NCBI RefSeq assembly: GCF_002234675.1
Contig: NC_019866.2
Span: 3,268,642 to 3,332,641, forward strand
Direction of reading: 5' to 3'
DNA length: 64,000 bases
Source: Oryzias latipes
Taxonomy: Eukaryota; Chordata; Actinopteri; Beloniformes; Adrianichthyidae
Positions 69-64,000 of this stretch are shown in pieces. The position numbers and the translations under genes were made by a program. Numbering within the stretch: position 1 is the stretch's first letter; each line of letters starts with the position of its first letter. A model generated the notes under the pieces. It did no database searches. It saw only the letters and a list, made by a program, of their open reading frames with translations, and was not told the origin of the DNA.

Positions 69-3000
69 TCTTTCAGGATGATCCGCTCATACATGGGTGA
101 GGATGAGGATAACATCTGCCCCGACCAGTCCAGATGCCCGGCTGAGTTCTCCTGCCTGAAAGCTCTGACCCGCTATGGCTGCTGTCCTTTAGCCCAGGTA
201 ATCTACTGAGCACAAAAAGCAGCACTGACCTCAGTACAGACGGTCATTTCTGCTGTTCTTGAACCTCTAAAAAGCTTAGATTGAACAGCCCGCATTTAAC
301 AATTTAAAAGCTTCAAGGTGACGGGAAGAATTTTGTATCATACCGACTACGATACAAAAGTACGATACGAGTGAGTGCTGAGAACCTTTTTTCTTTCTTT
401 TTTTTACAAACCTTTTCTGTTCAGAACATAAAGCAACAGTTAAGAAAAAAACAAGAGTCTACAAAAAGTGAGAATAGCAGTTCCTTCTTGCAAAAATCCA
501 AACCAGAGGGGATTAAAAGCTTAAAAGTTAATCTAGACTTAAAAAATAGTTTTCACTTCCTTTGACCAAAGTTTCTGCTTCTGTTTTTTTTTTGTACTTT
601 CACTTTGCTGAAGGTCATCAATAGAGGTTTGCTGATCTGTTTGCACTAATAACAGCAGGAACACGTGTTTAAAACAACAACTGGTAAGATTGTTTATAAA
701 AATGTTATTGACATGGTTCTCTTCATTTCTTGACCTCTGACAGGGAGTCTCCTGCCCTGATGGCAAACACTGTTGTCCTGAAGGGCACCAGTGCAGCCTG
801 GACAGCCGCTCATGCGTCAAAAAAGGTTCAAGTTCCACTAGTTTTTCCTCCTGAACTGCTCTCACCTTGGTCTTTTTTTGCCTATGACAGTTTTTCTATG
901 TTGCAACAGAGAGTATCAAGACGGTTCTGTGCAAAGACGGAGTGTCAGAGTGTCCAGATGAAACAACATGCTGTGAAAACCAGGAGGGAAAGTGGGCATG
1001 CTGTCCCATGCCAAAGGTACAGGAGGACACTTTTGGGAAATCCATGTATCTGTAATTAACTGTGCCATTCCAGAAAAATGATAAATCTGCATGTCCTTCT
1101 TGAAGCTGCATCATGTCGGGTTTGTTTCAACAGGCTGTCTGCTGTGATGATAAAATTCACTGCTGTCCAGAAGAAACAACCTGTGACGTTGAGCAAATGA
1201 AATGTTTGTCTTCCTCCGACAAAGCGCTGCCGATGTGGGCCAAGTTCCCTGCCAGAACCAGGGCAGACTGGGAGAACCAGAAAGGCTTGTTTGCTCCTCT
1301 GTGAATTAAAACAAAGCCATCCTCATTCTTGGTAATCATTGACTAAAACCGCCTCTTTCTGTCCCATCAGAGGGTAAGGAAGTAAGCGCTGTAGCAGTTG
1401 AAGGCAATGAAACCAAAAACTTCCCTGAAGTCACTACAGCCAATCCAGTTCCTGCTTTTCTGGAAGGATCATCTGTTGCCGGGGAAGCCTCAGGTAAGTT
1501 TGCAACATGGAAAACATGGAAACGTAAATAAAAGGAAGCAAAATTATAACTGTGCAGTTTAAAAGTCTTCCTCAATGAAATGTAAAGAACTAAACTGTAT
1601 ACTTCAGAATATCCACAAACTGAAAGTCACTAAAACATTCAAGAAACACAATTAATTCACCTGAAGACAAAATTTATCGACTATAAAAGCTGTCAATCTG
1701 TCCTGTTTTCCTGCTGGTTTGCATTCTTTGTGGTTGGAATGTCACTAACGGAAAAACAGATGTTATCACCAATCAGCGCAGATAATTACCAACAATTTCC
1801 TTTATAAATCCTTTATGTTAGACAGAACCGGATCAAAGCCAGAATAAAGATAATAACTGCTTTTAGTTTGCAGTACACCTGATATCTCACTCAGATAAAT
1901 CAATGATGTGAGCTACACGCCTTCAAGTCTACAAGCTTTTGTCTTTCAAAGACTTACTCAAGGAAAACCCAAAATAAAGATCAAACTCATTCAGAGCTCT
2001 GCACCAATTCTGTTTTCTTATATTTGAAGCCAAGGATATTCCATGCAATGAAACCGCATCCTGTCCTGATCAAACCACCTGCTGTAAAACCCAAGAGGGT
2101 GGCTGGGGCTGCTGTCCTTTTCCTGAGGTGAACTTAAGGTTTTCATCTTACTTTAGGATTCCTTATTTAAGATGTAACTCTCTAAAGTTCTTTCATCTTT
2201 TACCACATCCAGAGGAGCTGGTTGGGGAGGCAGCTTAGACTGCTGCCTCCAAGACCTGCTCCTGGATGAGTGGAAGAGATGGATGGACCTAGAAGTCCTT
2301 ATGTAACATGTAACTCTCTAATCCTCCTCCATTGTCTTTTTTAGGCTGTTTGCTGTGAAGATTTCATCCACTGCTGTCCAAAAGGCAAGACGTGTAACCT
2401 GGCAGCTCAGACCTGTGAGGGTGATGGAGGTTCTGTTCCAATGTTGGAGAAGGTCCCTTCATTCTCCAAAGTGTCTGTGAAGATGGAGGACGTTCCATGT
2501 GACGGCTCCACCTCCTGTCCTGATCAAACCACCTGCTGTAAAACCCAAGAGGGCGGCTGGGGTTGCTGTCCTTTTCCAGAGGTACTAATGTGGTTTTCCT
2601 CTCATCTTACTTTAGAAGTCTTTGCTTAATAAGGACGTTTTCTTTGTTCCTCTATCGTTTTTCTACAGGCTGTTTGCTGTGAAGACTTCATCCACTGCTG
2701 TCCAAAAGGCAAGACGTGTAACCTGGCAGCTCAGACCTGTGAGGGTGATGGAGGTTCTGTTCCAATGCTGGAGAAGGTCCCTTCATTCTCCAACGTGTCT
2801 GTGAAGATGGAGGACGTTCCATGTGACGGCTCCACCTCCTGTCCTGATCAAACCACCTGCTGTAAAACTCAAGAGGGCGGCTGGGGTTGCTGTCCTTTTC
2901 CAGAGGTACTAATGTTTTCATCTCATTTTAGGAGTTTAAATATCTGAGAGTTTTGTTTTGTTGTGAGGGAAGATCATTGTGTGAGGTTGACAGGCAGATT

Positions 3001-6000
3001 GGAGCAGTGTCCTCTGATATGTGATCGCTATGCCGGTCTGTTGTGAGGAAAAAAGAGCTGAATAAGAAAGCAAAGCTCTCAATTTACTTTAATACTTCCC
3101 TATGGTCATGAGCTCTGGGTCCTAACCAAAACAACGAGGTCCTGAAAGCAAGATGCCGAAATGAGTCTCCTCTTCAGGGCTGATGGACGCTCCCAGAGGG
3201 AGGTCGGAGTAGAGCCGCTGCTCCTCCACATCAAGAGGAGCTGGTTGGGGTGGCTTGGGCATCTGGTCCGGATGCTTCCTTGATACCTCCCTAAGGAGGT
3301 GTCCTGGGCATGTCCCACAGGGCGAAGACCCCTTGGAGGACCCAAGACATGCTGGAGGAAGTGACTGGGGAGAGGGAAGTCTAGGCATCTTTGCTTAGAC
3401 TGCTGCCTCCAAGACCAGGGGCCTCATTTATAAAACTTTGCGTAGGATTTGCGTCAGAAGTGGCGTACGGATGAAACATAGGACGTGCATACGCACAGAA
3501 ATATTCGGATTTATAAAACCGTGCGCACGCACATCCTACGCATCTTTCCCTTAATAAATCACAACCAATTCTAAATGCGGCGCAGCTTTTGCGGCTTCAT
3601 GACACGCCCATAGTTGCCCATAAATAGTCCGTGAAACGCCCACAAATTAATATTCATTGATTGCGAAACCATGGCAAACACCCGAGAGGAAATCAAAAAA
3701 ACGTAACTTCACTCAATGTGAAGTAGAAGTTATCGTTTGCAAGGTGGAAAAGAGGAGAAGAGTGTTGTTTGGAGGGCACAGTGTGGGCATTACTAATGCC
3801 AAAAAGGCACGTGAGCGGCAAACGGTGGCAGACGCCGTAAATGCTGTAGCCTCACAACCTCGGACCGTGGCCGAAATAAAAAAGAAATGGTCGGACATCA
3901 AAGTCGAGGCAAAAAAACGTCTGGCGCTGCATCACCAGAGTGTGTCTGCCACGGGGGGGGACACACACACACCGGAGCTGACCCCTCTTGATGACAGACT
4001 GGCGGCAATAATTGGGGAATCCCTTTTAAGTGGAGTGGTGACTGAGGCGCAGGGGGAACACTGACGCGCCAGATGCACCGGGTGACACACCCCCAAAATC
4101 CCGCAGAGGAAGTGGGAACCGGCTCATTAGCCACTCGTCCTCGTTTGCCAGCAAGTCTTCTTGCTGTTTAAAGATGCGTTCACTCCGAATTCTTCCATTT
4201 GCCACATCTTCTAAGAGCGCAAGATCAGCCATTGTGCATCATTACGCATTATGATGGGGCATTTTATTTCCCTCCATTTAATTACATCTGACAAGCTACA
4301 GATGTCGGTAATAATCGATGTGGAAATGGGAAATTGTTCAGCGCAAATGTAATTTCTTGTTGCTTTCTGAATGATTGAGACATACGCCATACATTGTTTT
4401 ATCAAAAATAAAACAAACTAAAGGCATATGCATGAATACCATAATTCCGTACCTTATGAAGAACTATTTTACTATGAAAACAACTTTCCCCAGTGGACAA
4501 TTAATATGTCCGTCTGTCTGTCTGTCTGTCTGTTTAATTGCACCTATATCTGCTCCGCCAGACGGACACATTAACGAGAATATCAACTTTGTACATTATT
4601 TCGTTCTGTTAACTATATTATTTATGAGGATGAATTGCACAGCATGCCAATATTGCAGAACATATTTCACTTTTCTTTTTGCAAATATGTGTTCATTTGA
4701 ATTTCTGTTGTAATTTTCGTTTGATTTTTTTGTTTGTTTCACTGCTGATCGATCAAACGGGTGTTCGTGTAGCTGTTAATTGTAAGACTTGCTTTGTGAA
4801 GTCTTCATGTTATTTATGAGAGGCAGTATTGTCATTTTCACTTTCACGTGTTTCTTCCATCTGCCGACGGCGTCGCCGTTTCTCATTTCACCCGTTTTTG
4901 TGCGTACGCCTGGGTCAGAGCTTGCGTGGAGGACCGCACATTTTCCCGTCAAGTTTGCTTTTTATAAATCTCAACTATTGCGTAGAGAGTGGCGTACGCC
5001 TTCTTTTGTGCGTACGCAACGTTTATAAATGAGGCCCCTGGTCCTGGATGAGCGGCAGAGATGGATGGACCTAGAAGTCCTTATATAACATGTAACTCTC
5101 TAATCCTCCTCCATTGTCTTTTTTAGGCTGTTTGCTGTGAAGACTTCATACACTGCTGTCCAAAAGGCAAGACGTGTAACCTGGCAGCTCAGACCTGTGA
5201 GGGTGATGGAGGTTCTGTTCCAATGCTGGAGAAGGTCCCTTCATTCTCCAACGTGTCTGTGAAGATGGAGGACGTTCCATGTGACGGCTCCACCTCCTGT
5301 CCTGATCAAACCACCTGCTGTAAAACCCAAGAGGGCGGCTGGGGCTGCTGTCCTTTTCCAGAGGTACTAATGTGGTTTTCCTCTCATCTTACTTTAGAAG
5401 TCTTTGCTTAATAAGGACATTTTCTTTGTTCCTCTATCGTTTTTCTACAGGCTGTTTGCTGTGAAGACTTCATACACTGCTGTCCAAAAGGCAAGACGTG
5501 TAACTTGGCAGCTCAGACCTGTGAGGGTGATGGAGGTTCTGTCCCAATGCTGGAGAAGGTCCCCTCATTCTCCAAAGTGTCTGTGAAGATGGAGGACGTT
5601 CCATGTGACGGCTCCACCTCCTGTCCTGATCAAACCACCTGCTGTAAAACCCAAGAGGGCGGCTGGGGTTGCTGTCCTTTTCCAGAGGTACTAATGTTTT
5701 CATCTCATTTTAGGAGTTTAAATATCTGAGAGTTTTGTTTTGTAGTGAGGGAAGATCATTGTGTGAGATTGACAGGCAGATTGGAGCAGTGTCCTCTGAT
5801 ATGTGATCGCTATGCCGGTCTGTTGTGATGAAAAAAGAGCTGAATAAGAAAGCAAAGCTCTCAATTTACTTTAATACTTCCCTATGGTCATGAGCTCTGG
5901 ATCCTAACCAAAACAACGAGGTCCTGAAAGCAAGAGGCCGAAATGAGTCTCCTCTTCAGGGCTGATGGACGCTCCCAGAGGGAGGTCGGAGTAGAGCCGC

Positions 6001-9000
6001 TGCTCCTCCACATCCAAAGGAGCTGGTTGGGGTGGCTTGGGCATCTGGTCCGGATGCTTCCTTGATACCTCCCTAAGGAGGTGTCCTGGGCATGTCCCAC
6101 AGGGCGAAACCCCTGGGAGGACCCAAGACATGCTGGAGGAAGAGACTGGGGAGAGGGAAGTCTAGGCATCTTTGCATAGACTGCTGCCTCCAAGACCTGG
6201 TCCTGGATGAGCGGCAGAGATGGATGGACCTAGAAGTCCTTATGTAACATGTAACTCTCTAATCCTCCTCCATTGTCTTTTTTAGGCTGTTTGCTGTGAA
6301 GACTTCATACACTGCTGTCCAAAAGGCAAGACGTGTAACCTGGCAGCTCAGACCTGTGAGGGTGATGGAGGTTCTGTTCCAATGCTGGAGAAGGTCCCTT
6401 CATTCTCCAACGTGTCTGTGAAGATGGAGGACGTTCCATGTGACGGCTCCACCTCCTGTCCTGATCAAACCACCTGCTGTAAAACCCAAGAGGGCGGCTG
6501 GGGCTGCTGTCCTTTTCCAGAGGTACTAATGTGGTTTTCATCTCATCTAACTTTAGAAGTCTTTGCTTAATAAGGACATTTTCTTCTTTCCTCTATCGTT
6601 TTTCTACAGGCTGTTTGCTGTGAAGACTTCATACACTGCTGTCCAAAAGGCAAGACGTGTAACTTGGCAGCTCAGACCTGTGAGGGTGATGGAGGTTCTG
6701 TCCCAATGCTGGAGAAGGTCCCCTCATTCTCCAAAGTGTCTGTGAAGATGGAGGACGTTCCATGTGACGGCTCCACCTCCTGTCCTGATCAAACCACCTG
6801 CTGTAAAACCAAAGATGGCGCCTGGGGCTGCTGTCCTCTTCCTGAGGTTATTATTCCAACAAACAGTCAGTTTGTGACACCATCCTTTTCTAAATCCATT
6901 TTATTTGAGGTTAATGCATCCAGAGTGGATTCAGTAGTTCACATACATGTTGATTTAAACAAAGTAAGGGAAAAGGACATATCATTAAGGGACTTTTCTA
7001 AAACCTTAAACATAACTTAATCTAATGACATTTTTTGACATTTTGACATTTTTTGGTTTGACATTTTTGACATTTTTTATAACGCGCTTTACTTTTCACG
7101 GTTTCGCTACTTCACGGATTTGCATCATGCGTTGTGTTCTGCATTCTGATTGGCTAAGAAGTCACTCCGCTTCTTCTCTACCTGTGCGTCAATAACGATG
7201 CAGTTTAATATGTACAGGTACGTAAAACACAGCTGCACCGCGGGCTTCAGAAGAAGAAAACACTGCAGAGCGGAGTCAGGATGCAGCAGCTCAGTCTGAA
7301 GAGCAGTGAAATACACCTGAGTCACTATTTGTCCCATTTTAAATTTTCTCCCGTTTAATCCAATTACTCGGGTCGCGGTGGGCGGGGCTAATCTCCGCAA
7401 TTTGAAGCCTTCTGTTCACATCGATGATTAAAATTATTATTTGACAGTACAGTACAGAAGTTATTTGTTGAAATTAAAAGTTTTTAAAGTACTTTTATTT
7501 GTGAAACAAATGCTTGAGCCTGTAAAATGGTTTGTTCTTTCTTTTCAATGTATAATAGAGTATTTAATTGTATAGTAATTGTAGAAAAAAAAAAAAAGGA
7601 TTCTACTTCACGGATTTTGCCCATCACGGGTTCTTCTTGGAACGTAACCCCCGCGAAAAACAAAGGTTTACTGTATTTCTCTCCTGACGAGTTGAATAGT
7701 GTATGACTGTGTGTTAAAGGCGGTGTGCTGTGACGACCACGAACACTGCTGCCCCACCGGTACCACCTGTGACTTGTCCACCTTGAGCTGTTTGAAGGCT
7801 TCTGGATTGGTGCCAATGAGTAAAAAGCTGCCTGCATCTACCCGGACTTCCTCTGCTACGAGCCAGCTGATGAAGACAGGACAAGAGACGGAGGAAGGGG
7901 AAAACAAGCCTGATGACAGAGATGGACAGGAGGATTTTGATGAGGAGGATAAAACTGATGAAGAGGGAATCATTTCCTGTGACAGCCACACCCAGTGTCC
8001 TCAGCACACCACCTGCTGCTTCATGAAGCAGGTTCAGAAGTGGGGGTGCTGCCCGCTGCCAAAGGTGAGCTCAGCTTCCTCACATCTCTACTGACGCCCT
8101 CTGACTCATCTCTTCATATCTGTATTGGTAAATGAAATGCTTTACATCTGATGTCAGTTAAATTTTAAAGTTTAGAATGAAATCTATTGTTATTTTATTA
8201 ATGCATTCTGCAATGACTGATAAGCAGTCCTTTTGCACGTTATTTGGTCCACTTTCTTAAACCGATATTTTCCTTTTGGGGTAACCCCGGACAGGTTGCA
8301 CCTTTAAGTTTAGCTTTCTCTGCATTCAAAAATAAAACACCGGGGGAATTTTAAAAATAAATTAACATTATTTTTGGTGCTGTCACAGCTTCCTCATTTC
8401 AAGTCTGACACTAACTGTTTAATGTAATCTTTTCTGATTAGAAATGCTTTCTTTGAACTCTAAATTATTCAGTTTCACAATCTTCTGTATTAAAATCTCT
8501 CCAATCACAACAAAAGTCTTTGTTTGGAGGATAAGATGTAAAAGAGAATTTAGCTGTGAATCCCAACATAGAACAAGAGTCACATTGGGTGCAGCTGTCA
8601 GGAACTGAAGATGTAAGAGCCAAAATGCAGGAACATAAACATAATTAATAAACCTAATCAGGACAAAATATGTGGAGAAACAAATAATAGATGAAAGAAT
8701 ATGACCTGACAATTAGTCAGGTAGAACTGAAAACCACACAATTCTACTCACTCAAGAACAGAAAGCTGTGGATTAATAGCTGGAAACCTGAGTGACTGTC
8801 AGAACATGACCAAAAAGACCATGGACAACCAAACTGAACCACAGAATCCTCACAGCAACAGTATGATAACATTAAATATGATTACAAATGTCTGAATTCT
8901 GGGGATAAAAGTTGTAGAAAATCTGGATTAAACTTGATTCACGTTGATTATGTCTGCAGCACATTGTGTCAACATAAATAGCCTCCAGTGTTTTATGATA

Positions 9001-11903
9001 AGGCGATCAAACTCATGTCGAAAATATTTTCTTTACTATAAAAAAAAGACAAGCTGAGTAATTATCTATAAGTAATTTTCTTTTTTAATTTGACTTAATT
9101 TTCATATTGTTTGAAGGACAAAAAAAATGGTTTTTGTTGCCTTATTCTGACTTTGAGCCCCCGCCCCTCTAAAATCCTGTGCATGTCCCTGTGCTTTAGT
9201 CACTATTGATCTTTTATGAGAGGATAGGGTACAAAATATTAAGATCGTAGACTGTTTGATGAACCCTTAGAGTGAAAAATGTTCACGCACATGAATTTCT
9301 ACGGGCACACTATGAGCCACAAGTGGTAGAACACTTACGGAAGGGTAGACTTCCATTAGCTTTACAAATACTTCACGATACACTTGCCACTTGCATGAAA
9401 ATGGTACATTCCAATTTATCATAAGGTGGCCTTACAAACCTCAACTGCAAGACACACCTGTGCTCACCTGACGATGCAGCCTCACCTGTCCACAACCCTC
9501 AATGTGTCCAGACAACTCAAAAACCTGCAGAACCCGTACGGGTCAACATTCCATTTGAGTGCATCTGACTAAAGCAAATTATGAACATTAAAGGCAAAAT
9601 GCTTTTGCATTTTAAAACATTTATCAGCATCTATCTTTCAGAAGAATGTATTTTATTGCCTTTAGTCTATGTAGCCACTGTCATTATTCAAATCCAAGGG
9701 AGTAGTTTAATTGCAAAGTCAGCAGTAACAAAGAATCATGCAAATTCTACAAAGCGTACCTGCAGATATCTGGATTTCGATCTGCTGTGTTTCATTTTAT
9801 CTGCATTAAAAAGTTAAACTTCAACAGGATCACTAATAAACCCAAAGGCTATGTACTCCAACAGAGTTTTTGGTTAAAAATGAAAACAAAGGAAATAGAA
9901 GGGCTAAATGTCTTAGAGATGTACTTGTGCATTTCAACCTCAAAGACAAGCAACTTCTGCTGTTCTTCAGATATCTGGATACTAAAAAGTTCTCCACAAT
10001 TCATCATTTTTTTCTCTGATTTTATTTTTACAAAGTGGTGATATTATTAAAGTGAGTTGCACTTTTCAGCACAACTCTGTTTTGAGATACCTGACTTTTA
10101 GACACGTTTTCTGGCCTTTTATGAAAGGGGTTTTACATCACAGAGACCTGCAAATGCTCAAGCAGCTGATACTGTAAAAATCCCCGCTGCTCACCAGATC
10201 AGACCCAAATGTAACCTGGAATCATTGTTTCCCTACTTTGCATGTTCTCTTTTGGTATCTCGACTCCCATTTCTGCATTAGGTTCTGCACTTTCCCTACC
10301 TCTAAGTTCAGTTTTCCACCTCAGATGAAAGCAGAAGTGAAGACAGGATGAAGTAAATGAAAGTGATGCTTCCTCTTTCACTTCTCTTCAGGCGGTATGC
10401 TGTGCTGACGGGGAGCACTGCTGTCCCGCCGACTACAAGTGCAAAGAGGAAGACACCTCGTGTGTCAAAGGAGAAGTGGTGATCCCATGGTACACAAAGA
10501 TCCCAGCCACCGACAGTATTCAGGCGGATTCCAGCTTTGTGCAGTGCAGCGCTGTGCATCAGTGTCCCGAACACATGTCCTGCTGCAGGCTGTTCACAGG
10601 AGAGTGGGGCTGCTGCCCGCTGCCAAATGTGAGCACATCTGTGTTGCATTCGGAGAACAGAGTTGCAACATGGAAATAAAGAGACATGAATTAGCTTTAA
10701 AAGGTTCGTCTTTGTAAAGTGTCCTTGTTTGTGTGCAGGCTGTGTGCTGTGGTGATAAGGAGCACTGCTGCCCAGAGGGCTACACCTGCGACCTCGCCTC
10801 CAAGTCCTGCCATAAGCTCCTCACGTTGCAGCTGGAGACCGTCCCGCTGACACCAGTGTTTCTACCCGACGACCAGTCCCAGCATGGTCCAGTAAAGCCC
10901 ATCCTGAACCGATGCGACGACGTCTACAGTTGCAACGTGGATGAGACCTGCTGCAGGACGTCCCACACCACCTGGGGGTGCTGTCTGTCCCCTAAAGTAA
11001 GACAATTCCATCCATTTAATTTCTATGCTATTTCCCTTTCGGGTTAACGGGGTTGCTGGAGCCTGTCCTGGCTTCTGTTTGGCAACGGTGGGGTACACCC
11101 TGGAAAGGTTGCAGGGCATTCAATCACTCCCACACACACTCATACATGCACACCTAGCGAGAGCAGGGGGTGTCAGAATCCAAGCCTCGAGGGCGAGTGA
11201 CCAACAGGTTTTCCAACCAACTGGCTATTGAAGCTCTTTATTGGCGAAACACGCCTGATCCAGGTAATCAGCTGCAGATAAGGCAGGATTTCTGAAAAAC
11301 TAGCAGGAGGCCGGCCCCCTGGAGTTTGACTCCCCTGCTTTTGAGTAACCAACTAACCTATGAAGGAAGTTAGGGAAATAACAAAAATGCATAGTTTGTC
11401 AATTGAAAGCAAATAAAGCACACAGTTGTCCTACGTTATCGGTCTATAATTTTCCCCTAGAAGCTTTGCATTGCAACAATTAGAACCTTTATTTAAAACA
11501 ATGTAGCCTATAAACGTAAATTTTAGTAATTTCAATTCGAAAAACCTGTTTTATCTAAGTTAATTTATAGAAACTTATTCCACTTGACCTATATTAGAAC
11601 TGAAGACATTCTTTGTAACAAGCGAATATTCTGCCCCCTTAGCTTAGGCTGTATTTACCCTCTAATAATGTAATCTTTCCTTATTTGGCTCAAATAATCC
11701 AGACAGGTCAGAACAAGAGAACCGCACGCTTACAGAATCCCGTGTCCTCTTCTTTGCAGGCCGTGTGCTGCAGAGACATGAAGCACTGCTGTCCTGATGG
11801 CTACAGATGCACAAAAGGCGGCTCCTGCATCAAGAACACTGGGCTGCACTGGCTCAACTGGCACACATTCTTCACCAACAAGAGGAAAGCCATAATCGTG
11901 TGA
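69..11903 (+). CDS. grn: Progranulin (granulin precursor), 5'-partial, 12 granulin domains visible
   Basis: Secreted/lysosomal cysteine-rich growth factor precursor cut into granulin peptides. Exons: ~69-197, 744-825, 910-1016, 1134-1284, 1371-1493, 2030-2127, 2345-2581, 2669-2905, 5127-5363, 5451-5687, 6286-6522, 6610-6846, 7720-8064, 10392-10628, 10739-10996, 11760-11903 (stop). All phases join; the visible part is about 1031 aa against 593 in human. Each domain is split between two exons at the typical spot after CCPxPE/K, before AVCC. Most domains keep 12 cysteines. The first resembles human granulin G (SCL and VSC instead of CC pairs). The signal peptide and paragranulin exons must lie upstream of the window. 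The exon at 7720 has a long acidic linker. The C-terminus ends KAIIV, not the QLL that binds sortilin in human. The exon 1134-1284 donor is GC, not GT. This is probably the long teleost paralog (grna). Confidence 0.96.
2209..2262 (+). repeat. Short remnant of the intronic LINE tail
   Basis: A short piece (agaggagctggttgggg then gctgcctccaagacctg) matches the two ends of the longer LINE tails at 3092-3417 and 5868-6200, with the middle deleted. It lies in the intron before the first amplified exon. The tail was therefore present before the array expanded. Confidence 0.6.
3092..3417 (+). mobile_element. Non-LTR retrotransposon 3'-end relic in grn intron
   Basis: In a broken + frame the sequence reads [11 protein letters not shown], then WACPTGRRP and PKTCW. 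This is the W.GH..RM type of tail found downstream of the reverse transcriptase in many fish LINEs. It has in-frame stops and is a dead fragment. It ends at the Harbinger insertion point and resumes after it (5039 onward). The family is not resolved by eye. Confidence 0.7.
3657..4064 (+). pseudogene. Harbinger Myb/SANT-like (trihelix, NAIF1-type) DNA-binding protein relic
   Basis: A 135-codon frame contains [13 protein letters not shown] near the start and [21 protein letters not shown] around residues 63-82. These resemble the helices of NAIF1 and of the second protein of animal Harbinger elements, which binds DNA and brings the transposase to the element ends. A better Kozak start (accATGG at 3670) lies in another frame and meets a stop after 11 codons, so the 5' end is frameshifted. 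The family protein is usually longer, so this copy is probably truncated and inactive. Confidence 0.75.
4506..4531 (+). repeat. (CTGT)n microsatellite
   Basis: About six CTGT units in a row inside the Harbinger element; typical slippage repeat. Confidence 0.8.
5868..6200 (+). mobile_element. Second copy of the same LINE 3'-end relic (duplicated with the grn unit)
   Basis: Nearly identical to 3092-3417 and in the same position relative to the granulin exons, so it was copied as part of the exon-pair duplication. It carries the uninterrupted (empty) version of the site where the Harbinger element sits in the first unit. Confidence 0.75.
7022..7080 (+). repeat. Short irregular tandem repeat (tgacatttttt units)
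   Basis: Several copies of tgacatttt(tt) of slightly varying length follow one another in the grn intron, just before the pogo/Tigger-like sequence. Confidence 0.7.
7081..7673 (-). mobile_element. Pogo/Tigger-like (Tc1-mariner superfamily) DNA element remnant
   Basis: Read on the minus strand, the right end begins CAGTAAACCTTTGTTTTTCG followed by CGGGGGTTACGTTCC, with TA next to it. This is the CAGT-start, CGCGGG-rich end style of Tigger-type elements. Motifs such as acttcacggattt occur near both sides (7110 and 7605). No transposase frame is visible and the left terminus is eroded. The element stops only 46 bp before the grn exon at 7720, so it sits in the branch-point/polypyrimidine region of that intron. 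Confidence 0.6.
8065..10391 (+). other. grn: Long grn intron without recognisable genes
   Basis: This 2.3-kb AT-rich intron separates the acidic-linker exon from the exon at 10392. Several short open frames are present, but none has family motifs or coding character. Splice ends are strong (aag|gtgagc and cttcag|gcg). Confidence 0.7.
11030..11345 (+). repeat. Dispersed fish repeats in the last grn intron
   Basis: Two pieces are seen. 11045-11155 reads ggggttgctggagcctgtc then gggtacaccctggaaaggtt and a CA-rich stretch, a tail common in fish repeats. 11170-11345 reads ccaggtaatcagctgcag and ends cccctggagtttgactcccc. Both resemble widely dispersed fish SINE/MITE-type sequence. No coding content. 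Confidence 0.6.
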
Positions 11904-13308: not shown

Positions 13309-14033
13309 AAACTGAGCATCAGAATGGAAAAGAAAGGAGATTGAAGGGACTTTGAACGTGGCATGGCTGTTAACGTGGCATAGTTGTTGGTGCCAGACGG
13401 GCTGGTCTGAGTATGTCAGAAACCGCTGATCTACTGGAATTTTCACCTGCTACCATCTCTAGGGTTTACAGGGAATGGTCAGAAAAAGAGAAAATATCCA
13501 GTGAGCGGCAGTTCTGTGGGCAGAAATGCCTTGTAGATACCAGAAATGGCCAGAATGGTTCCAGCTGAAATATCTTGGCACACTTTGGGTCATTTAGTAG
13601 CAACTGCTCATCGTTGGAATGGCATAGACCTTGTCCGTCCCTTTATGCCCACTGTGTACCATCTTCTGACAGCTACTTGCAGCAGGAAAAGGCACCAATT
13701 CATAAAGCTGGAATCATTTTATACTGGTTTCTTGAACATGACAATGAGTTCTCTGGACTCAGACGGCCTCCACAGTCACCAGATCTAAACCCAATAGAGA
13801 ACCTTTGGGATGTGGTGGAACGAGAGATTGGCATTATGGATGTTCAGCTGACAAACCTGCAGCAACCGTGTGATGCTATAATGTCGATATGGACCAAACT
13901 CTCTGAGGAATATTTTACAGTACCTTGTTAAATCATACCACGCAGGATTAAGGCAGCTCTAAAGGCAGCTCTAAAGGCAAAAAAGGCTCCAACCCGGTAC
14001 TAGCAAGGTGTACTTAATAAAGTGGCCAGTAAT
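13309..14033 (+). mobile_element. Tc1-like transposon, internally deleted
   Basis: Starts with sequence typical of fish Tc1 elements (gactttgaacgtggcatgg, then tctagggtttacag). It continues to a C-terminal transposase piece with PPQSPDLNPIENLWDVVERE around 13764-13826, the last part of the DDE catalytic core, and ends gtacttaataaagtggcc. The middle third of the transposase is missing (jump near 13565), and frameshifts and stops are present. It is a dead copy between grn and rundc1. Confidence 0.85.
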
Positions 14034-15214: not shown

Positions 15215-20372
<5,158 letters not shown>

Positions 20373-45545: not shown

Positions 45546-45595
45546 ATAAAAAGGCCCAAAAGTCACCAAAAGAGGTAAACATCTGGGGGTGAGAA

Positions 45596-48500
45596 ATGCA
45601 CAGTCAGGATGAGGGAGGAGGTACAGACGGAGGAGGAGAGCAGTCAGCGGAAAAGCAAAAAGCCGAGGAGGCCAACAAGGATCAGAAGCAGAGTAAAGAT
45701 GAGTCCAACAAGCTGGAGAGGGAGAGCAGCGAGAAGGAACCAGGGAGCGGGAGCAGGAGGGAGAGCCGCCGGGCCGGTCCTCCCAGGATGGGCTGGGCTC
45801 TGAGCGACCGCCTGGCCATCAACGTGTCAGGGATGCGCTACGAGACCCAGCTCCGGACGCTCGCCCAGTTCCCGGACACGCTGCTGGGCGACTCTCAGCG
45901 CCGCCTTCGCTACTTTGACCCGCTGCGTAACGAACTGTTCTTGGACAGAAACCGCATCTGCTTCGAGGCCATCCTCTACTTCTACCAGTCGGGGGGGAGG
46001 CTGAGGAGGCCTGCAAACGTCCCCCTGGACATCTTCATGGAGGAGCTGCACTTCTATGAGCTCGGAGAGGAGACCATCGACCGCTTCAAGGAGGATGAGG
46101 GCTTCCCCAAAGAGGAGGAGAGACCTCTGCCAGCCAAAAAGTGGCAGCAGAAGATCTGGATGCTGTTTGAGTATCCAGAGTCTTCCGGTGGAGCGCGGAT
46201 CATCGCCATCATCAGCGTCATGGTCATCATCCTCTCCATTCTCATCTTCTGCCTGGAGACTCTGCCCGAGTTCAGACAGGAGAAAGAGCGGAGGGAGGTG
46301 AGGAGCTTTCAGGGGTTTCGAAGACGAATGCGTAGGAGGTTAAGACTGCAGGATAATAGAATCAACACAGAACCATTCAAAGCTTAAAGTAAATGAAGGT
46401 TTTTGAACTGAATCCGATCCAGGTGAAAGCCGTGGAGACCACGGGGAGGGCAGTGAAACCGTAGACGGAAAGCAGAGAAACGAGGAGAGGGCAGATTTGC
46501 AGAGATGCTATAAGCCTGTCAGAGTCTGCAGGTATTTTTGCATTAGGTCGATACTTTAAAATGCAGTGAGAAGAAGGAGCAAGAGAGGGGCTTAGAAGAT
46601 GAGAAGCAAGTGGCAGGGTAGGAGAACGTGTCTCACGTTACCACTTGCAGACCTGGAAGAGCTAAATATAAATGCAGAACAACCCTTAGAGCACATCAAC
46701 ACATAAACCCGTGTCCATATTAAAGAGCTGTGGCTGAGACCGGCATGAAAACCAGGCCGAGAGATCAGCGTTTCTGATGACGGCTGCAGAACCACCTGAA
46801 CGTGTAGCATCACTCTCACAGTCAGCTGTGGTTTCTCTGCACATAATCACTAAAGAGGACATCCAACAAAAGGCTGAATACACAGCTGCTCTAATGTAAC
46901 CTGCTGTTCACCACATGGAAGCTCTCAGAAACTGGATCAGGTTTGGTTTCTCAACAGATCCACATGACTGAACCAAAGTCTGGAGCAGAGCAAAACGCTG
47001 AAGCAATTTGAGCAATGGCCATGAAAACTCAGACGTTACAATGAAACGCAGACAGTGGAAATGAAAAAAAAAAGGGTTTAATCAAACCCACATGAGTTTT
47101 GTCAGTCTGCACTGCCCCTTGTGAAAAACCTCAGTACTCTCAGTATAGCAGCAGACATGAGGACACGACCTGATGGGCGAAGTGAAACGGCTCCCTTTCC
47201 ATTTTCAAGAGTCCGTCCAGCTGAAACCAATAAACTACAATACATCAGTCCTGCTATAAATCCTCATTTCAGGCAGCTGAAATGTTAGGTTGGTTCCGCT
47301 GGATGTTGATGTTGGAACACGCAGTTCCCTTTGTTCATCTTGTTTCCGAGGCTAAGGTTAATAACAAAACAACATCTATTCCAATTAAAGCACAAACACA
47401 CCACGAGCCAAGAAAATGGCCCCAAAGGAATCAGCATCTCTCTAATCAGGAAGGTGGAACCGCTGCCGCATTTGACTCCTTAGATTCTGACGAATCCGTA
47501 AACGGTTTAGAGCAACAACAAAAACCTGAATTTATTTCAAATCTCCTCCTTGATCTGAGGAAAACAACAACAGCTGGTTTGAAAGAAGTGTCAGATGCTC
47601 GTAACACAAGCCACCGTCACATGAACTGGATGTTTATTTGTCTGTTTAAATATAGAGAAAGTGACTTATATATAAAAAGTGACATATAAAAGTCTGCGGA
47701 AAAACATTCAAGCTGGGAGAGTGAAAACGGAGAGCAGGCAGAAGTTAACACAGTATCACAGACCTCATAGCTTAAATGTGCTGAGAACATGTCTCCATCA
47801 TAATCGTACTCCTGTTTACACTGCTATAAACATCGTATCCATAGAGATAAGCCCCACCCCTAATTTATTCTAACATTTACACTGCTAAATGTTGTTAAAA
47901 CCATTGACTGTACATGACAATTGGACCGAGTGACCCCCCATCCTTGGCATTCCAAACAGGAAATACCCGCTGGCTCCAAGAAGCAAAAAGTCCCATAAAC
48001 CTCTATAGAAGAACAAACAGCTGTTATTATGTCAATCTATTGGTCAGAATAACCATTCTCGCTTTGATACTTTTTTTTCACATGTGTTGTGTAGATCAAG
48101 TTATAAACTGACCAATCAGATGGCTCAATAACAGTAGGTTGAGTCTGCTGCCCCCCACGTTTGACAGATTTTGTGTAGCCTGGTTTAAGTGATAGGGGTG
48201 TGGACTACCAACAAGCTCACTCCTGATTGGAGGGAGTGGCTGCCACAGCAGGCAGACTCAGACCAATCACTGCTCGCTGACAAGTTCTGGCTTCCAACGT
48301 GGCGACTGAATTTTTTTTTCTCAAATCTGTTTTTATTGCAAACAAAGAAAGTATTGTTACATACATGATAAAAATGAAACAAAGATATAGTTTCATATTT
48401 GCAAGACAACTTGGCCAGTTTTTTCTTTTCTTTTTTTTTCCAAACACCACTGTCCCGTCTCCCCACCCCCACAAAAAAGGGAAAATAAATAAATGAATAA

Positions 48501-50253
48501 ATCTGAAAAAATAAAATAAAAAGAAAGAAAAAGGAACCCCCTCGAACCCCCCTCTCCATAGTTTGCAAGACAAGGGTATGATATATCTTGTCCAATATAA
48601 CAAAAGCATATCTTTATGTGATCAACTCGATGGCCAAATCGATCAGCCAAGTGGCAACATAAAATAGAGAAATATAGTAACATATATAGCTGATGTGATA
48701 TTTATACGTAAGGGAAAGGAAAATAGTAATAATAATATTAACAATGCTAATAATAGTTAAGAATAGTTGGAATATTTTAAACTATAAACTACTGAGATGT
48801 GATGGTAGAATGTGAGGAGGCCTCAGGTAGAATTTGCCAAAGTGACCTAAAACCGGAACCCCCAAAATTTGTCCCTTGATCCCCGAACTGAATATTTTAT
48901 TTTTTCAAGTTGTAATATTTGCATAAGATCCGTCAGCCACTGGGACACCCTGGGGGGGTCTTTAGATTTCCAGTGCAATAATATACGGTGCCTTGCTATT
49001 AGTATAGCAAAAGCAAGAATGTCTTTGTATCTGGGTTTTGGTGTGAAACACCAAATATGGCTGCTTCTGCACCAGTCTGCATCTGATAAAGTTTTAAAAA
49101 TTTTAGACAAATAATTCACCAGCGCAGAGCATGACCAGAACATCTGTTGTGTCGACTGAATTGACTTCAATTGGTTGCAGCTGGAAGTAAACCATTTTTT
49201 ATGAGTGACACGACGCTCACTGAGTCCAGGTGTCAATGATTAAAACTGTCATTCGGTGAAAGACAACACGTTGCTTCTGTTTGGGTGACCACTTGTGCCT
49301 CATTCTTTGTCTTGCAGCAATACACCATCACCCCTCACCCCACCATACCCAACGAAACCGTCCAGGTCCCGCCAAAGTTCACCCCCTTCCACGACCCGTT
49401 CTTCATCGTGGAGACCATCTGCATCTGCTGGTTTTCCTTCGAGCTGATTATGCGCTTCATCAGCGCTCCGAGCAAGATGAGCTTCTTCAAGGACGTCATG
49501 AACGTCATCGACTTCTTGGCCATTCTGCCTTATTTTGTCACAGTGGGCACGGAGCTCGGCAAGGACAAAGACACCCAGCCCTCGGTGTCTCTGGCCCTCA
49601 TCAGGGTCATCAGGCTGGTGAGAGTCTTCAGGATCTTTAAACTTTCCCGTCACTCCAAAGGCCTACAGATCCTCGGTCAGACCCTGAAGGCCAGCCTGCG
49701 GGAGCTGGCCCTGCTCATCTTCTTCCTCTTCATCGGAGTCATCATTTTCTCCAGTGCCGCCTATTTTGCTGAGGCGGACAGTCCAAACACGGCCTTCACC
49801 AGCATACCTGAAGCTTTCTGGTGGGCGGTGGTTTCCATGACAACGGTGGGCTACGGTGACATGTGCCCGATTACGGTTGGGGGAAAGCTGGTGGGCTCCA
49901 TGTGCGCCATCGCAGGCGTGCTCACCATCTCCTTGCCCGTGCCCGTCATCGTGTCCAACTTTAGCTACTTCTACCACAGAGAGATGGAATGTGAAGACAC
50001 CAGAGAGTACCACCACGTCTCCACGTCCGTCTGGGAGAAGAGCGAAGAGGACGGAGACGAGGACGACGAGGAGGACGGAATGGACGAAGATCCGGAGAGC
50101 ATGTTGGATTACGCACCCCTGTACGGGCAGAATAGGGCTATGTGCCCTCCACTCAATGGGACCCTCATGGCTGGGGTTTGCGGCGGACAGGAAACAGGCG
50201 ACCCTGTGACCTTAAGGTTCTGTCCCAAGGAACCCTTGGTTACTCAGGTCTGA
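45596..50253 (+). CDS. kcna7: Voltage-gated K+ channel Kv1.7 (shaker type)
   Basis: Exons 45596-46297 and 49318-50253; 545 aa (human 456). T1 tetramerisation domain about 70-165 ([20 protein letters not shown]), S1 about 198-222, N-glycosylation site NET at 246-248 in the S1-S2 loop. S2 contains [19 protein letters not shown], and S4 repeats arginines in [18 protein letters not shown]. The K+ filter is TTVGYGD (409-415) and the S6 hinge is PVP (441-443). The acidic C-tail ([16 protein letters not shown]) ends VTQV, a class I PDZ ligand. A coding intron between S1 and S2 is unusual among Kv1 genes but known for KCNA7, and together with the bcat2/hsd17b14 neighbourhood decides the name. The 64-aa charged N-terminal extension may be dispensable: a second Met at codon 65 matches the start of the conserved part. 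Confidence 0.94.
47903..48308 (+). repeat. Dispersed repeat family B, copy 2
   Basis: Same sequence order as 14083-14535: cattgactgta, cccgctggctccaag, cctctatagaag, tgtgtagcctgg, gtggactaccaacaa, ctcactcctgattgg, ttccaacgtgg. An L1 3' end follows immediately. Confidence 0.75.
48309..49237 (-). mobile_element. L1-type LINE 3' end, 5'-truncated
   Basis: Poly-T at 48309 (poly-A on the minus strand) followed by 3' UTR. An open minus frame at 48847-49236 has the C-terminal ORF2 pattern of fish L1 ([20 protein letters not shown], then ILLHWK and [14 protein letters not shown]). The zinc-knuckle-like upstream part is lost. Minus orientation in the kcna7 intron. Confidence 0.8.
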
Positions 50254-56363: not shown

Positions 56364-63757
<7,394 letters not shown>

Positions 63758-64000
63758 CTGAAGGAGGCGGGGGGAAAGGTTTAAGAACCATCTGTGGTCT
63801 GTCTCACCAGTTTAGGGAGATGTTTTAGCAGGAAAATCCATATAAACTAATGTTTCATTTGCAGTTTTTTTGCACATTTTGTTCAACTTCACATACAAAA
63901 ATAGGAACTAAATTAATTTCTCCAATACGAATCAGGCCTGTCACACAGGAAAGGATTGGAATGGACCAACTTTGAGCAGAAAAATATCACATCGTCAGCA

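Follow-up and report, generated by a model that had tools for sequence, protein, structure and literature searches.

We examined a 64-kb stretch of medaka DNA (hereafter the window; C8:3268642-3332641 of one Oryzias latipes assembly of 734,051,031 bases in 25 contigs), at the start of which lies most of a progranulin gene. The spliced model of this gene has 18 exons and one open frame of 1124 amino acids that encodes 13 granulin modules, and it contains six nearly identical exons, E1 to E6, arranged as three tandem copies of an exon pair. We consider it probable that this exon-pair block was multiplied in tandem to three copies within a long-form progranulin, and that exchange within the exons has kept them alike. 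The parts of the gene are given below in window coordinates, with exons taken from the gene model unless another basis is named.

-820 to -680 (just before the window), + strand: SN exon
-145 to -8 (just before the window), + strand: C1 exon
69-197, + strand: N2 exon
744-825, + strand: C2 exon
910-1016, + strand: N3 exon
1134-1284, + strand: C3 exon, with a GC donor
1371-1493, + strand: y exon
2030-2127, + strand: N4, the N-half exon directly before the array
2128-2344, + strand: intron before E1, of two-part composition
2345-2581, + strand: E1, CN exon of unit 1, linker K
2669-2905, + strand: E2, CN exon of unit 1, linker N (NVS sequon)
2906-5126, + strand: long intron of unit 1, containing a transposon (alignment to the next long intron)
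~3419-5040, + strand: DNA transposon of 1.62 kb with inverted ends (self-comparison, domain match, genome DNA search)
5127-5363, + strand: E3, CN exon of unit 2, linker N (NVS sequon)
5451-5687, + strand: E4, CN exon of unit 2, linker K
5712-6228, + strand: dispersed repeat in the long intron (genome DNA search)
6286-6522, + strand: E5, CN exon of unit 3, linker N (NVS sequon)
6610-6846, + strand: E6, CN exon of unit 3, linker K (exon comparison)
7720-8064, + strand: CN7 exon
10392-10628, + strand: CN8 exon
10739-10996, + strand: CN9 exon
11760-11903, + strand: C10 exon, stop included

The assignment to progranulin, already proposed in a first-pass annotation of this DNA, is borne out by a match to the Pfam Granulin family (PF00396) at 1.9e-23, with 82.8 bits against a cut-off of 20.9. 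The best sequence match among solved chains is human granulin A (PDB 2jye), with an E value of 1.1e-19 over 56 residues of one module. Unlike that single module, the medaka module is repeated five times unchanged; in the predicted protein five modules are identical across 52 residues. The 12-cysteine pattern fits 12 of the 13 modules, and module 2 has ten cysteines when counted by eye. The exon order reads sn-c-n-c-n-c-y-n, then the six CN exons of the array, then cn-cn-cn-c, with the signal peptide judged by eye. This exon order, the chain of modules, and the signal-peptide exon are those of the long-form GrnA group as set out in Table 2 of Palfree et al. (PMC4527844). Across the genome there are 25 Pfam Granulin matches, 13 on contig C8, 9 on C19, and 3 on C11, which we label GrnA, GrnB, and short-form, respectively, from exon order and from the portions of Palfree et al. 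(PMC4527844) that treat these groups. Chromosomes 8, 19, and 11 also match those that bear Hox clusters in medaka. As predicted from its exons, the window gene is a long-form (GrnA-type) progranulin.

Each of the six array exons is 237 nt long (79 codons), open, and in phase 0-0, with AG before it and GT after it. Every one starts with AVCC and finishes at the glutamate that precedes the next intron, which makes them CN exons in the nomenclature of Palfree et al., each made up of the second half of one module, a linker, and the first half of the module after it. The repeated block consists of exon a, an intron of 87 bp, exon b, and an intron of ∼0.6 kb, in three tandem copies. Pairwise, E1 to E6 differ at 0 to 12 of 237 positions, with 14 variable columns in all. 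The first-pass annotation had described these six exons, their length and phase, their frame-neutral character, and the small number of base differences between copies, and all of this agrees with our comparison. It had also put the three units at about 1.16 kb each, which is right for the start-to-start distance of units 2 and 3 (1159 bp) and wrong for units 1 and 2 (2782 bp), because the 1.62-kb transposon lies between the latter. In a whole-genome DNA search the array matches itself at 97-100% identity, and among the best 40 of 2401 candidates no copy overlapping an array exon was found outside the gene, where the matches are to the dispersed intron repeat, although weak matches may be missed; together these results exclude chance likeness.

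The pattern of differences bears on what the repeated unit is. E3 and E5 are identical (0/237 differences). E4 and E6 are identical across columns 1-201, where both carry letters private to this pair at columns 55, 93, and 114; the remaining 36 nt contain 6 differences. The earlier claim that the unit is an exon pair, based on such variants shared by the third and fifth and by the fourth and sixth exons, therefore holds for units 2 and 3. The pattern is less clear in unit 1, where E2 differs from E1 at 4 positions, from E3 and E5 at 3 each, from E4 at 6, and from E6 at 12. Within a unit, exons a and b are also close: 4/237 differences for E1/E2, 5/237 for E3/E4, and 9/237 for E5/E6, of which 4 fall in the first 201 columns.

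The last 36 nt of E6 locate the right edge of the array. The 3′ end of N4 encodes the same 14 residues as E1 to E5, and E6 does not; near this junction N4 and E1, E3, E4, and E5 have an identical stretch of 41 nt in common (read off the sequences). The intron after E6 finds no convincing partner in the repeat unit (best match E 0.61). The front of E4 (columns 1-201) is of the E6 type, and its back is of the type found in E1, E3, and N4. As read from these alignments, the 3′ boundary of the repeat is inside exon E6 and not in an intron. The E4/E6 divergence is confined to the last 36 nt and gives way to an unrelated intron, a pattern that speaks for a crossover or a conversion tract inside the exon. 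A second candidate for exchange is E2, which sits at a b position and has a-type letters at columns 55, 93, 114, and 126. As a separate observation, the intron after E6 carries a short tandem repeat with a 24-bp period at 7034-7078.

These features suggest how the array could grow. Because each CN exon, in phase 0-0, carries the second half of one module, a linker, and the first half of the following module, unequal crossing over or a conversion tract anywhere within two such exons would keep the frame and would add or remove whole modules. The 237-nt exons would themselves be the recombination substrate, perhaps aided by the repeat in the long intron. Recombination at the level of the exons would keep them alike and leave copy number free to move in both directions, and the product would be a 13-module precursor able to release several identical granulin-A-like peptides.

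Two measurements speak to selection and to age. In columns 1-201, seven of the eight variable columns are synonymous, against ∼25-28% expected without selection (P 4e-4 to 7e-4), so the array copies have been kept coding by selection. With the transposon set aside, the long introns of units 1 and 2 align with 586 matches, 12 mismatches, and two one-base gaps (2.0% apart), and the short introns of units 2 and 3 differ at 4 of 87 sites. On the sequence scale the copies are young, as had been claimed earlier. A published rate of single-nucleotide polymorphism between two inbred medaka lineages is 2.455%. If rates are alike and the introns have not been reset by exchange, the duplication would be about as old as the split of the medaka lineages. 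Because the two values are close, it is fair to predict that medaka strains differ in copy number; such variation is plausible, and we offer it as a prediction and not as a result.

The intron before E1 is built from two parts. Its first 80 nt (2128-2207) align over their full length to the long intron without its repeat (61 matches, 12 mismatches, and 13 gap bases; 0/1000 shuffles), and the remainder (2203-2344) matches the tail of the repeat-bearing long intron, in pieces of 29 nt (93%) and 112 nt (96%), and shows an additional internal deletion. The joint, located by eye, is an eight-base word common to both, CCACATCC, at 2203-2210. The simplest reading is that the intron may be a fusion of a repeat-free intron with a repeat-bearing tail, the CN exon between them having been deleted. 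Since CN exons are in phase 0-0, the frame would have survived this deletion. A long target-site duplication was considered as the origin of this intron and set aside, as the full-length alignment of the left part makes a fusion of introns the simpler account. If a CN exon was indeed lost, the array slot would be, on the evidence of one genome, a site of both gain and loss.

The long introns contain two dispersed sequences. The unit-1 transposon, which we take to be Harbinger-like, contains a Myb/SANT-like open reading frame (ORF) at 3651-4061 (PF13873, 1.5e-16), and no transposase domain was found in the three transposon ORFs scanned. There are 32 other genomic copies of at least ∼1.5 kb with 88-95% identity among the best 40 of 1432 candidates (rows counted). 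By eye, no exact target-site duplication was seen. The element is absent from the matching site in the next long intron; it therefore arrived after the duplication or was lost from that intron. The dispersed repeat is ∼0.5 kb long, and its main piece matches 39 places outside the gene at 68-77% identity among the best 40 of 2401 candidates; 30 of these 39 matches start within 2 bases of one point (row count). This repeat was evidently in the intron before the unit was duplicated, and was duplicated with it. It may help mispairing. No copy of it was found after E6 within the 64-kb window, so the repeat alone cannot explain the right edge.

The last result bears directly on a different account of the growth, in which repeat-mediated or illegitimate breakage occurred in introns only and the dispersed repeat was the sole crossover site. 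Such an account draws on the presence of a ∼0.5-kb repeat in the long intron inside the duplicated unit, and it is at odds with the missing copy beyond E6 and with a right boundary that falls inside an exon and outside the repeat; we regard it as unlikely. About equally unlikely, in our estimation, is an older duplication without exchange, in which selection on the protein alone held the six exons alike. Almost all of the variation is synonymous, as this would require, and the rates in introns and at synonymous sites cannot always be told apart, but the long introns, which have no known constraint, are only 2.0% apart, the 3′ end of E4 makes that exon chimaeric, and E2 has a-type letters. Much less credible than either is an artefact of assembly, in which haplotypes were merged or reads joined wrongly to give extra units. 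Long stretches of units 2 and 3 are identical (0/237 and 0/201), which an assembler is liable to mishandle; against this, the window contains no N, and each unit carries its own markers, namely, the transposon after unit 1 only, the 4/87 differences in the short introns, the 12/598 differences in the long introns, and the diverged end of E6. The Hd-rR medaka assembly comes from an inbred strain and long reads and is ∼734 Mb in size, according to the parts of PMC5705604 that describe it; if the genome searched is that of Hd-rR, merging of haplotypes is unlikely.

In support of exchange, the short and long introns are homologous (0/500 and 0/1000 shuffles reach the score) but have mismatches at 9 of 68 aligned positions, plus 30 gap bases, whereas the a and b exons of a unit differ at 4/237 (E1/E2), 5/237 (E3/E4), and 4/201 (E5/E6, first 201 columns). 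Several points weigh against tandem multiplication with in-exon exchange, mostly against the exchange. The tests that would tell homogenisation from ordinary constraint are weak. The synonymous difference between a and b exons, 3/44, is not distinguishable from the mismatches between short and long introns (P 0.36), and in comparison with the intron before E1 it gives P 0.16 and 0.04. When all exon sites are compared with the intron, P is 8e-4, a value in which selection is mixed. For units 2 and 3, the short intron compared with synonymous plus flanking sites gives P 0.04, rising to 0.11 when neighbouring changes are counted as one. For units 1 and 2 the synonymous difference is in fact higher than that of the introns (8/88 vs 13/685, P 0.001) because of the a-type letters of E2, an excess that fits exchange with a diverged copy and not simple homogenisation. 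The letters of E2 could also be explained by new mutations in the ancestor of E4 and E6, and constraint may account for part or even most of the likeness between a and b exons. Between exchange of a and b exons and fresh changes in the E4/E6 ancestor, we rate exchange as the likelier, though not proven. In addition, the gene model and the splicing of the array exons are predicted from genome sequence alone, we infer the recency and direction of change from one genome, and the intron after C3 needs a non-canonical GC donor (1284-1285) in the model. A nearby GT site, considered by eye as an alternative donor for C3, leads to a stop.

If the last 36 nt of E6 are set aside, the array exons differ in a single amino acid, at codon 42 in the linker, where E1 to E6 read K N N K N K. 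The N creates an N-glycosylation sequon, NVS, at residues 444, 523, and 681. In human progranulin, cathepsin L cuts in linkers, and the failure to find sites in two of them is ascribed in PMC5526245 to likely interference by N-glycosylation. By this precedent, the presence of K or N could set the points at which the repeated modules are separated. With one variable residue, the pattern may be due to chance. A stronger proposal would combine a live array, in which unit number differs by strain through in-exon crossovers, with a K/N residue that is a selected glycosylation mark setting which identical granulins go free singly and which stay joined; we hold this combination to be improbable and put it forward as speculation.

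Near-identity of the CN exons is peculiar to the C8 gene, since the related exons of its paralogue have diverged from each other. On C19, two CN exons of the GrnB-type gene cluster with those of the array in a protein tree at moderate support (81/89; most of the tree's other deep forks are open), and their end branches measure 0.6 and 0.8 changes per column. The closest parallel in the literature is zebrafish GrnA, which in Table 2 of PMC4527844 has sn-c-n-c*-n-c-y-n before and cn-cn-cn-c after its variable slot, and a second module that is likewise short of cysteine. Unlike in zebrafish, where split n-c exons occupy the slot, the repeated unit in medaka is a CN exon pair. The same slot would then have been enlarged in two fish by different exon units, which suggests independent growth. 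Tandem near-identical modules recur independently in zebrafish GrnA (modules 4-7), Xenopus, lamprey, Aplysia, and oyster, and Palfree et al. in 2015 called the origins of such modules unclear, as reported in the relevant passages of PMC4527844. The words “unequal”, “crossing over”, “recombination”, and “copy number” do not occur in the main text of that paper, and the medaka array is not mentioned in those of its sections and passages that we consulted. Tandem intragenic expansion is described in a 2005 zebrafish paper (PMC1310530). A search of titles and the starts of abstracts found no report of copy-number variation or of gene conversion for granulin genes, with most subscription journals lying outside the search.

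Outside the granulins, the nearest architectural parallel among those considered is the kringle IV-2 (KIV-2) repeat of human LPA, a 5.5-kb unit of two exons with one long and one short intron that is polymorphic from 1 to >40 copies, in the account excerpted from PMC4378929. Both are tandem two-exon units with one long and one short intron and near-identical copies. Unlike KIV-2, the medaka unit is present in three copies in one assembly, and each of its exons spans two half domains, where the LPA unit corresponds to one domain. The kind of expansion is therefore already known; what is new is the medaka array, its joints, and its age. The locus displays the joints of one granulin expansion: the ends of the units, a junction within an exon, an intron clock, and perhaps the loss of an exon. 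For three inbred medaka strains, long-read assemblies have been published (PMC5705604), and with the divergence of the array close to that between lineages the question of origin is directly testable. In humans, frontotemporal dementia results when one GRN copy is lost, and a fish whose progranulin repeats identical granulin-A-like modules might be useful as a natural variant in dosage.

Downstream of progranulin, the window contains an ORF at 13569-13928 with a DDE_3 endonuclease match (1.8e-7), a transposase remnant, and another at 19434-20369 with a RUN domain (2.5e-29). Farther along, at 45593-50250, two ORFs with matches to BTB_2 (5.5e-25) and then Ion_trans (3.6e-51) probably belong to one potassium-channel-like gene. 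At 63459-63803, on the minus strand, an ORF matches the sodium:dicarboxylate symporter family (SDF, 5.4e-16).

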